From NCBI GenBank assembly GCA_020052235.1, contig JAGVPM010000084.1, positions 1 to 33,642 on the forward strand: DNA of 33,642 nt. The letters are read 5' to 3'. Position 1 is the stretch's first letter, and every line of letters begins with the position of its first letter. Positions 19,920 to 22,427 of this stretch are shown piece by piece. The position numbers were made by a program, and so were the translations under genes. A model generated the notes under the pieces. That model saw only the letters and a list, made by a program, of their open reading frames with translations. It was not told the DNA's origin and searched no databases. The DNA comes from Candidatus Goldiibacteriota bacterium (GTDB lineage: Bacteria; Oederibacteriota; JAAXVQ01).

Positions 19920-20008
19920 CTTTGTCATTTCGAACGAAGTGAGAAATCAGTATTGCTTTTATTTTTAAAGTTGTTATTAGATTTCTCACTTCGCCCGAAA
20001 TGACAAAG
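19920..20008. repeat. Inverted repeat of the GTCATTTCGA family, 89 bp
   Basis: The left arm (19920-19948, CTTTGTCATTTCG then CGAAGTGAGAAATC) mirrors the right arm (19980-20008), with a few unmatched bases. The loop is AT-rich. The same short sequence recurs at 20161, 20355, 20677 and 21798. Confidence 0.75.
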
Positions 20009-20121: not shown

Positions 20122-20241
20122 ATGTCTGAATCTGAAAAAGAAAAAACTTTGAAAGATGTTGAGATCTCTCCCTTTGGTCGAGATGACAAGGATGTATGGG
20201 GCGGGTGTCAGTCACCGGTTAATGATGGAGGCCGGAGTTAG
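20122..20241 (+). other. 39-codon ORF ending in repeat-derived sequence
   Basis: An ATG at 20122 with an AAGGAGG ribosome site (20108-20114) opens MSESEKEKTLKDVEISPFGR and runs to a TAG at 20239-20241. The second half is encoded by a copy of the dispersed repeat (20161-20188), giving EISPFGRDDK, almost the same as the repeat-derived tail of the GIY-YIG protein (EISPCGRDDK). It may be a cut-down remnant of a gene of that sort or simply fortuitous. Confidence 0.35.
20161..20188 (-). repeat. Dispersed 28-bp repeat, inverse orientation
   Basis: The sequence is the inverse form of the repeat at 20355-20382 and matches the copy at 20677-20704 at 26 of 28 positions (CTTTGG instead of CTGCGG). Confidence 0.7.
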
Positions 20242-20318
20242 TTTGTTAGTTTTGTTGGGTAAGGTACTCAGCCCGAAACATAAAAATCTCCGCAACTATT
20301 TTCAGCAATTCTTGTCTA
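20234..20318 (+). repeat. Direct repeat DR1, copy 1
   Basis: About 85 bases, from GGAGTTAGTTTGTTAG to CAGCAATTCTTGTCTA, reappear at 21838-21921 with roughly 80 percent identity. The last 30 bases (CGCAACTATTTTCAGCAATT and on) are identical. The two copies flank the GIY-YIG and MNT/HEPN genes. Confidence 0.7.
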
Positions 20319-20354: not shown

Positions 20355-20382
20355 TGTCATTTCGACCGCAGGGAGAAATCTC
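20355..20382 (+). repeat. Dispersed 28-bp repeat abutting the GIY-YIG start codon
   Basis: TGTCATTTCGACC...GGGAGAAATCTC ends exactly at the base before the GIY-YIG ATG at 20383. Its inverted partner is at 20677-20704 (26 of 28 matching). There is no separate ribosome site except the GGGAGA inside the repeat, so the repeat supplies the translation start region. Confidence 0.8.
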
Positions 20383-20718
20383 ATGCCCCAAGAGCATCAC
20401 TACTACGTATACCTATTAACCAACCAGAACAACAAAGTCATGTACATCGGCGTAACCAACAACCTTGAGCGGCGGGTGTATGAGCACAAGATGAAGCTGG
20501 TACCGGGTTTTACGGAAAAGTATAACGTGAACAAGCTTGTTTACTTTGAGGAAACGTCCGACGTCCGCGCTGCGATAGCAAGGGAAAAGGAAATCAAGAA
20601 ATGGCGGCGGGAGAAAAAGAATAATCTGGTTATAGCTGCAAATCCTGAGTGGAGGGATTTGAGCGAGGGGTGGGGGGAGATCTCTCCCTGCGGTCGAGAT
20701 GACAAAGGCGAAAGTTGA
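20383..20718 (+). CDS. GIY-YIG family nuclease, repeat-associated
   Basis: The 111-residue protein has a single GIY-YIG domain: YYVYLLTN (the GIY strand, residues 7-14), YIGVTNNLERRVYEHK (21-36) with the catalytic R30, and AREKEIKKWRREKKNNLVI followed by NPEWRDL with the conserved Glu. These small stand-alone GIY-YIG proteins are of unknown function; relatives include UvrC nuclease domains and homing endonucleases. Residues 99-111 (EISPCGRDDKGES) are encoded by the inverted repeat copy at 20677-20704. The ATG directly abuts the left repeat. The gene therefore lies precisely between two inverted copies of a dispersed repeat, which resembles a mobile unit. Confidence 0.85.
   Translation: MPQEHHYYVYLLTNQNNKVMYIGVTNNLERRVYEHKMKLVPGFTEKYNVNKLVYFEETSDVRAAIAREKEIKKWRREKKNNLVIAANPEWRDLSEGWGEISPCGRDDKGES
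20677..20704 (-). repeat. Dispersed 28-bp repeat inside the 3' end of the GIY-YIG gene
   Basis: This is the inverted copy of the repeat at 20355-20382, with two mismatches. It is translated as the C-terminal tail of the nuclease. Confidence 0.8.
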
Positions 20719-20750
20719 GATGACAAAGTTGGGGATCGAGATGACAAAGA
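20696..20750 (+). repeat. Short tandem tail of GAGATGACAAAG units
   Basis: GAGATGACAAAG occurs at 20696-20707, 20718-20729 and 20739-20750, spaced about 21-22 bases apart. These are partial copies of the end of the dispersed repeat, as if it had been extended by slippage or repeated insertion. Confidence 0.6.
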
Positions 20751-20804
20751 CGGAAACTGAGGTAAAATGTTGTTTCTTCCTAAAAAGCATGGTAAATTTA
20801 GGCC

Positions 20805-21122
20805 ATGACTATTCAAGATCGCATGCCCATTATCCAAGACATGGCTGATAAAATTATCGCTGCTTTTTCCCCGGAAAGGATCATCTTGTTCGGTTCCTAT
20901 GCCTGGGGCAAGCCGGGTCCAGACAGTGACATCGATTTTTTTATTATTAAAGATACGAATGATACCCGTAAAACATCCCGGAAGATAAACCGCCTGTTGT
21001 TCCCCAGGGAAACGCCCATTGATGTGATTGTTTTTACTCCGCAAGAATTGGAAAAACGGAAAAATGATTTTTTTGTGGAGGATATTTTGAAGAAAGGCAA
21101 GACGCTATATGCCAGAGCATAG
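20805..21122 (+). CDS. MNT-type minimal nucleotidyltransferase (antitoxin candidate)
   Basis: The 105-residue protein has the nucleotidyltransferase signature GSYAWGKPGPDSDIDFFII, with G30-S31 and the metal-binding D42 and D44, plus a third Asp at D73 in PIDVIVFT. Minimal nucleotidyltransferases paired with HEPN proteins form toxin-antitoxin modules in which the transferase modifies and silences the HEPN RNase. The HEPN gene overlaps its end by 14 bases, so the two are translationally coupled. The start lies after the repeat tail of the GIY-YIG gene, and no clear promoter is seen. Confidence 0.85.
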   Translation: MTIQDRMPIIQDMADKIIAAFSPERIILFGSYAWGKPGPDSDIDFFIIKDTNDTRKTSRKINRLLFPRETPIDVIVFTPQELEKRKNDFFVEDILKKGKTLYARA

Positions 21123-21489
21123 CGTGAAAGAGTGGCTGGCCAAGGCGGAAGAGGATGCAATTGCCGGGGAAGATATTTTAGCTGCGGGACATTTTTATGG
21201 TCCGGCTTGCTTTCACTTTCAGCAGGCAGTTGAAAAAATGCTGAAAGGTTTTCTGCTTTTTCACAATCAGAGATTTCCCAAGAGCCATGATTTACTGCAA
21301 CTGGAAACGTTTCTTTTGCCCTTTGAGCCGGAAATCAAAGAATTAGAACCGGAGTTGGATATATTAAACTCCTATTATATTGAAACCCGTTATCCCGGAG
21401 CAACGTCTGGTTTTACGCGCCAAGAAGCAGAACTGGGTCTCGCGGCTATGATGAAGATCAAGGAATTTATAAAAAAGAAAGTAAAATGA
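21109..21489 (+). CDS. HEPN-domain protein (toxin candidate of the MNT/HEPN pair)
   Basis: The 126-residue helical protein matches HEPN domains: VKEWLAKAEEDAIAGEDILA at the N-terminus, FHFQQAVEKMLKGFLLF in the middle and QRFPKSHDLLQL containing the Rx4H motif (R55, H60) of HEPN RNases. The usual extra Tyr two residues after the His, seen in HepT, is not present (HDL here), so it may belong to the other branch of HEPN proteins. It overlaps the nucleotidyltransferase gene by 14 bases. Confidence 0.85.
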   Translation: MPEHSVKEWLAKAEEDAIAGEDILAAGHFYGPACFHFQQAVEKMLKGFLLFHNQRFPKSHDLLQLETFLLPFEPEIKELEPELDILNSYYIETRYPGATSGFTRQEAELGLAAMMKIKEFIKKKVK

Positions 21490-21797: not shown

Positions 21798-21827
21798 TGT
21801 CATTTTGAGGTAAACCCGAGAAATCTT
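21798..21827 (+). repeat. Degenerate copy of the GTCATTTCGA repeat
   Basis: TGTCATTTTGAGG...CCGAGAAATCTT resembles the dispersed repeat at 20355, with several changes. It lies directly before DR1 copy 2. Confidence 0.5.
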
Positions 21828-21837
21828 GATGCGTGAC

Positions 21838-21921
21838 GGAGTTAGTTTATTAATTTTGTTAGGTGCGGCACCAGGTCTAAAACAGAAAAATTCCGCAACT
21901 ATTTTCAGCAATTCTTGTCTA
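21838..21921 (+). repeat. Direct repeat DR1, copy 2
   Basis: Second copy of the ~85-base repeat at 20234-20318, in the same orientation, 1.6 kb away. Apart from this, the terminator and the degenerate repeat, the 545 bases between the HEPN gene and the dinD fragment hold no gene I can support. Confidence 0.7.
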
Positions 21922-22034: not shown

Positions 22035-22427
22035 ATGGCAAAGGAAATTGCAAAGATAACCGGCGGTCATGCGTCGCCTTTCGAGCGGATCAAGCGCATG
22101 AACGATTCGGGTATGGAGTTTTGGTCAAGCCGTGACTTTTCCGAGGTGCTCGGTTACGGCGATTACCGCAATTTTGAGGGAGTTATAGAGAAGGCCAAGA
22201 TGGCCTGTTTTAACAGTGGACACCGTCTTGAAGACCATTTCGTTGACGTCACCGAAATGGTCGCCATCGGGAGTGGTGCTGAGCGGCCTATTAAAAATAT
22301 TCTCCTTTCCCGTTACGCCTGTTACCTTGTCATTCAGAACGCCGATCCCAACAAGGAGATTGTGGCACAAGGTCAAACCTACTTTGCCATCCAGACGCGG
22401 CGTCAGGAACTGGCGGCAGAAACGTAA
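22035..22427 (+). pseudogene. DinD-like protein, C-terminally truncated
   Basis: The 130 residues match the N-terminal half of DNA-damage-inducible protein D. Landmarks are SPFERIKRMNDSGMEFWSSR, DFSEVLGYGDYRNFEGVIEK, then HRLEDHFVDVTEMVAIGSGA and LSRYACYLVIQNADPNKEIV followed by AQGQTYFAIQTRRQE. Full-length DinD has about 270-280 residues; here the frame ends right after RRQELAAET. The first half is well preserved, so this is either a recent truncation or a short stand-alone form. An AGGGGAA lies before the ATG. Downstream (22428-22662) I see no gene. Confidence 0.75.

Follow-up and report, generated by a model that had tools for sequence, protein, structure and literature searches.

The CGTC-tagged REPs are short dispersed repeats with a CGTC tag, stems that start with AT and an arrangement as head-to-head dimers, and they include the Neisseria dRS3 repeats and the RPE-4 and RPE-6 elements of Rickettsia; in the survey that described them they were apparently without a dedicated transposase (Di Nocera, 2013; PMC3733652). 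With dRS3 and the Rickettsia palindromic elements included, they are among the commonest short repeats of bacteria. Two other described systems come close to the locus that I will discuss here, namely the REPtrons, in which REPs or REPINs are paired with a RAYT, an HUH transposase with a Y1 tyrosine, and the free-standing GIY-YIG homing endonucleases of the I-TevI group. In this article I argue that a small GIY-YIG nuclease and the CGTC-type REP hairpins that it would recognize, cut and spread probably, though far from certainly, make up a widespread two-part selfish system, an argument that draws on the association of hairpin and gene, the outward orientation of the hairpins, the matching of hairpin type to protein clade, base-pair covariation, gain and loss of the unit and the invariant catalytic residues. 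A published report of such a pairing was not found in the literature searched, whose coverage left preprints and most subscription papers outside.

The locus lies in a stretch of 33,642 nucleotides from a Candidatus Goldiibacteriota bacterium (the window, meaning the whole stretch analysed), where a GIY-YIG nuclease gene (20383..20718, + strand, 111 amino acids by translation; PF01541, E 1.7e-18) sits, exactly as the initial annotation had proposed, between inverted copies of a hairpin repeat at 20356..20381 (+) and 20678..20703 (-). Both copies point their GTC outward, away from the gene, with TGTC at both outer ends of the unit; the ORF starts directly after the left hairpin and one C, and the right hairpin overlaps its last codons. 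The match of 26 in 28 positions given for these two copies is correct, and its 2 mismatches fall on opposite sides of a single stem pair (T-A to C-G) and so compensate for each other. The additional copies listed with them are also present, as a head-to-head dimer at 19924..20004 (copies at 19924-19949, +, and 19979-20004, -), a further single copy at 20162..20187 (-), a degenerate copy, GTCATTTTGAGGTAAACCCGAGAAATCT, at 21799..21826 (+), and three outward half-copies of the GTC end, of the TCGAGATGACAAAG type, at 20694..20756 (-). At up to 3 mismatches the window holds 5 matches to the 26-nt repeat GTCATTTCGANNNNAGNGAGAAATCT, and 100 shuffles of it hold 0. The inner arm of the left hairpin carries AGGGAG (20370..20375, +), 7 nt before the ATG, which is likely the ribosome-binding site of the nuclease gene and would then be supplied by the repeat itself. 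Tandem outward half-copies like those in the window, consisting of the GTC end and the 5' arm only, occur at the outer edges of REPs in several phyla (L186, L267-L286 and L074), with 45 outer and 19 inner cases, and may reflect the mechanism by which the repeats are copied.

The 26-nt repeat is a hairpin with a GTC tag, an AT-starting stem and an unpaired C-T/C tail. In the class found in the window, a 5-bp stem is followed by tandem G-A mismatches, a 2-bp inner stem and a 3-nt loop, and other lineages have uninterrupted 8-bp stems, for example GTCATTCCTGCGNAGGCAGGAATCC. For the analysis of covariation, 26-mers fitting the pattern GTCAT-N3-GA-N7-GA-N3-ATC[CT], 52 distinct ones in all, were gathered from all loci without demanding that the N3 or inner bases pair. 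Within the predicted helix 95.9% of cells are paired and 82 double changes occur, and the covariation exceeds that of all 500 shuffles (0/500) and of all slid versions. Columns 4-24 (A-T) and 5-23 (T-A) pair in 52/52, although the collection had already demanded GTCAT and ATC; the other five pairs covary. The single-strand folding energies of the short hairpin type are unremarkable, so the claim of structure rests on the covariation, and the repeat is conserved as a structure rather than as a sequence.

With the CGTC-tagged REPs the repeats of this family share a TGTC, CGTC or CCTC tag (terminal and unpaired, TGTC in the window), the AT-starting stem, a short C-rich tail, head-to-head dimers and a mainly intergenic dispersal. 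The described form, with a stem of 8-9 bp, a loop of 4-5 nt and a CCA tail, is that of the Rhizobiaceae, Azospirillum lipoferum and Flavobacteriaceae types, whereas the tandem G-A mismatches of the window type stand between 5 and 2 bp of stem, its loop has 3 nt and its tail is CT. The repeats of this family either belong to the CGTC-tagged superfamily or resemble it closely. Also, the surveyed taxa that were checked (Sinorhizobium meliloti with CCTC tags, A. lipoferum, N. aromaticivorans and Neisseria with its dRS3 arrays) carry the nuclease gene beside CGTC/CCTC-type hairpins; the difference is that the survey found no transposase gene to go with the repeats, while here they are consistently linked to a nuclease gene.

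The window genome (3.17 Mb, 99% complete) contains 59 copies of the repeat at up to 3 mismatches, against 0 for a reversed-pattern control, and among 30 sampled copies 29 are paired head to head. The repeat is dispersed as a dimer of 63-102 bp whose edge at the GTC is sharp and in which a short hairpin mostly faces a longer one. Two genes of the REP-linked GIY-YIG subfamily are present in this genome, the second (L002) flanked by a different hairpin type, GTCATTGCGAG...GCAATC. Copies number 127 in a Francisellaceae genome (G076), many of them identical, in dimers with two spacings.

The encoded protein is a GIY-YIG nuclease by Pfam and by fold (structure model pLDDT 84), with UPF0213 BH0048, Slx1 and UvrC-N as its fold neighbours. 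Y10, Y21, G23, R31, H35, E68, K72, R76 and N87 are invariant in 62/62 homologues, and this set includes all of the catalytic residues (Y10, Y21, R31, H35, E68 and N87). Slx1 is a nuclease that cuts branched DNA, so the likeness of fold fits a hairpin or cruciform substrate. The small GIY-YIG proteins of COG2827/UPF0213 (1zg2, 1ywl), to which E. coli YhbQ belongs, have the same fold and size, and the window protein shares with them the catalytic Y, R, H, E and N; what sets its subfamily apart from that group generally is the linkage to REPs, which the more distant GIY-YIG proteins tested do not have. The idea that the repeat-encoded tail (EISPxGRDDK) would recur in homologues did not hold up: the family core ends near residue 97, homologues normally end at NPxWxDLSxxW, and residues ~99-108 of the window protein (EISPCGRDDK) are an extension beyond that end, predicted to be disordered and best described as incidental read-through into the right repeat, so that comparison of C-termini across homologues ruled out a conserved domain. 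The Slx1-like neighbours could also suggest a host enzyme that resolves REP cruciforms or hairpins, is kept because REPs are hazardous and is linked to them for co-inheritance, and one of the three COG2827 genes reported in Caulobacter crescentus has an SOS box (PMC1839093). I regard such a repair or policing role as very improbable, since one would not expect a housekeeping enzyme to be present patchily, to be tightly linked to REPs or to be gained and lost together with them, and many REP-rich genomes are without the gene.

A profile built from 14 homologues and run against GTDB contigs, a protein-only search that left the flanks unselected, returned 80 homologous loci from more than 20 phyla, including Patescibacteria, Chloroflexota, Planctomycetota, Myxococcota, Bacteroidota, Bacillota and Cyanobacteria. 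A GTC-AT hairpin lies within 250 bp of the gene at 76/80 loci, compared with 70/344 control ORFs of the same loci (p 2e-37), and hairpins on both flanks with GTC outward are found at 39/80 loci compared with 1/344 control ORFs (p 2e-31). Flanking repeats thus recur at homologues in many phyla, as the initial annotation had anticipated, and close homologues do not consistently lack them. The density of hairpins is highest in the first 100 bp from the gene and falls to background beyond ~600 bp, and the altered tags GACAT, CTCAT, GTAAT and GTGAT showed no enrichment near the GIY-YIG genes. Among more distant GIY-YIG genes a hairpin was found in 3/14, all looking spurious, and in the phage records no homologue was found. 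Two conserved loci (L105 and L146) have no hairpin anywhere in the locus, which counts against spread by the nuclease; they could be domesticated or recently transferred gene copies. The unit takes its simplest form in several cases on alphaproteobacterial plasmids (L187-L190, L290-L291), where one CGTC hairpin stands on each side of the gene, the two inverted to each other.

REPs are substrates for recombination, and one could imagine that they simply land near a small dispensable gene, or that the gene moves by homologous recombination at REPs, with no role for the enzyme; the existence of REP-rich genomes without the gene agrees with this. Such passive hitch-hiking is improbable in my estimation, because it does not account for an enrichment at the GIY-YIG gene over neighbouring ORFs of the same loci, for the outward orientation, for the absence of hairpins at other GIY-YIG subfamilies or for hairpin types that are specific to protein clades across phyla. 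That last point comes from a maximum likelihood tree of the 80 proteins (95 columns, poorly resolved), on which hairpin class needs 18 changes compared with a shuffled mean of 40.9 (0/200). The clade with TTCGA-type hairpins spans 7 phyla and the clade with TCTGA-type hairpins also 7, and in the phyla found in both (Myxococcota, Planctomycetota, Chloroflexota, Thermodesulfobacteriota and Zixiibacteriota) the hairpin type follows the clade and not the phylum, from which it is reasonable to conclude that nuclease and hairpin travel or evolve together.

The parallel with REP and RAYT drawn in the initial annotation is apt, since here too one small enzyme gene is bracketed by inverted tagged hairpins, in the window and at those 39 loci, with repeat dimers in trans, divergent low-copy enzyme genes and species that have the repeats but not the enzyme. 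Unlike in REPtrons, the enzyme is a GIY-YIG nuclease and not an HUH Y1 tyrosine transposase, the tag is GTC and not GTAG, and the gene often lies between direct copies of a dimer; the system is therefore not a REPtron although it would work like one.

The copy number of the repeats follows the gene in part. Among 251 Flavobacteriaceae genomes, the median number of GTCATTCCTGCG hairpins is 19.5 with a close homologue (26 genomes), 2 with another member (108) and 0 with none (117), a relation with p 6e-14 by a statistic that ignores kinship; of seven exceptions with at least 10 copies and no member, six hold a more distant member by profile. Among 59 relatives of the window genome, at least 5 core hairpins were found in 7/17 with the gene and 5/42 without it (p 0.017). 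The expectation that repeat number should track the nuclease therefore stands for the Flavobacteriaceae but is broken by repeat-rich genomes without a close homologue, which count against spread by the nuclease: G057 with 69 copies, G001, and G300, where a GIY-YIG member is absent even by profile search. The REP-rich genomes G002 and G005, with distant GIY-YIG members only, count against it as well. The case of G057 indicates that the repeats can persist without the gene, as REPs do without RAYTs.

Furthermore, the gene comes and goes as a discrete unit with REPs at its borders, and the filled and empty sites that one would look for in related strains do exist. On the plasmid AZO_p3 of A. lipoferum 4B the order is sufB, REP dimer, GIY-YIG, REP dimer, sufC; in 11 other Azospirillum records sufB and sufC match and the insert is absent, and the five sequences read are without it. 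In those sequences the region between sufB and sufC contains no REP, so the A. lipoferum unit is an insertion, its exact ends blurred by divergence of the intergenic DNA, so that no target-site duplication can be read. In Winogradskyella, two genomes (G059 and G335) have hairpin, gene and hairpin where a third (G342), its left flank 98% identical to that of a gene-bearing site, has one fused symmetrical hairpin, GTCATTCCTGC-CTTC-GCAGGAATGAC, at the same point. A second comparison sets G340, with a decayed gene and both hairpins, against G334, with the fused hairpin (flanks 98% and 88% identical, 20-bp overlap), and remnants at this site in other species suggest an old presence and repeated loss, for which replication slippage across the 20-bp repeat could suffice. 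The comparison of S. meliloti with Sinorhizobium M103 was ruled out as an empty site, as the gene is present in both and the sole difference lies in how many REP cassettes they have.

A simple element with terminal inverted repeats, as first pictured, is not the general form: the long repeats beside the gene duplicate an entire REP cassette in direct orientation at 26/78 loci and are inverted at 5/78, and A. lipoferum and S. meliloti are examples of the direct arrangement. The ends of the unit are REPs of variable type, and gene copies within one genome are divergent, where an insertion sequence would be expected to leave near-identical copies at several sites. This divergence means that no recent transposition of the gene was seen, which counts against spread by the nuclease. 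The main rival takes up the direct cassettes. GIY-YIG is the classic fold of homing endonucleases, and REPs of other origin could serve as homing sites, a resident REP being cut and the gene copied in by homologous repair so that it ends between two REP copies, which would agree with the direct cassettes at those 26 loci and at the A. lipoferum insertion, and with one fused hairpin at empty Winogradskyella sites against two at filled ones. The likeness to the I-TevI group extends to the catalytic fold and to a gene flanked by copies of its putative target, but there is no intron or intein, and that target is a multicopy hairpin instead of a unique gene site. I consider homing unlikely, as by itself it leaves unexplained why REP copy number tracks the gene, and no REP stands at the insertion point in the other Azospirillum sequences read.

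To return to the two-part system, its nuclease would most likely recognize the tagged hairpin, as a single strand or a cruciform, and cut there, after which repair or replication would copy REP units to new places and occasionally also the nuclease gene between its REPs; the repeats would thus be spread in trans, in an operation like that of the RAYT/REPIN pair with an unrelated enzyme. The broader proposal, a class of mobile DNA in at least 20 phyla in which a single hairpin-recognizing GIY-YIG nuclease moves itself and CGTC-REPs in trans, its specificity coevolving with the hairpin and no transposase, integrase or reverse transcriptase taking part, is more tentative, and I would put it at somewhat below even chances. 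If true, it would mean a further class of mobile DNA, one that works without a transposase, and a large group of proteins whose only name at present is 'GIY-YIG nuclease family protein' would gain a function. A specific candidate enzyme can now be named, one that adjoins the repeats both in those CGTC-REP taxa that were checked and in many phyla outside the 2013 survey. Its substrate is predicted in detail, including the stem sequences specific to each clade, so that the question of how the repeats spread becomes directly testable.

The neighbourhood of the window unit deserves a few remarks of its own. Directly downstream lie the genes of a nucleotidyltransferase (PF18765/PF01909) and a HEPN protein (PF05168), a pair of toxin-antitoxin form (20805-21122 and 21109-21489), and a direct repeat of ~96 bp, at 20223-20318 and 21827-21921, brackets this pair together with the GIY-YIG unit, its identity rising from 74% to 94-100%; a search with its 28-mer core found only two copies in the genome, which ruled it out as a dispersed element. 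The genus-mate G001 has the same flanking genes without the GIY-YIG gene, and was ruled out as a clean empty site because its entire interval differs, with other genes standing there between the conserved ones for an epimerase and an O-antigen ligase. Beside the repeats, at 22035-22427, is an ORF with a Bro-N domain (PF02498), usually of phage or mobile origin.
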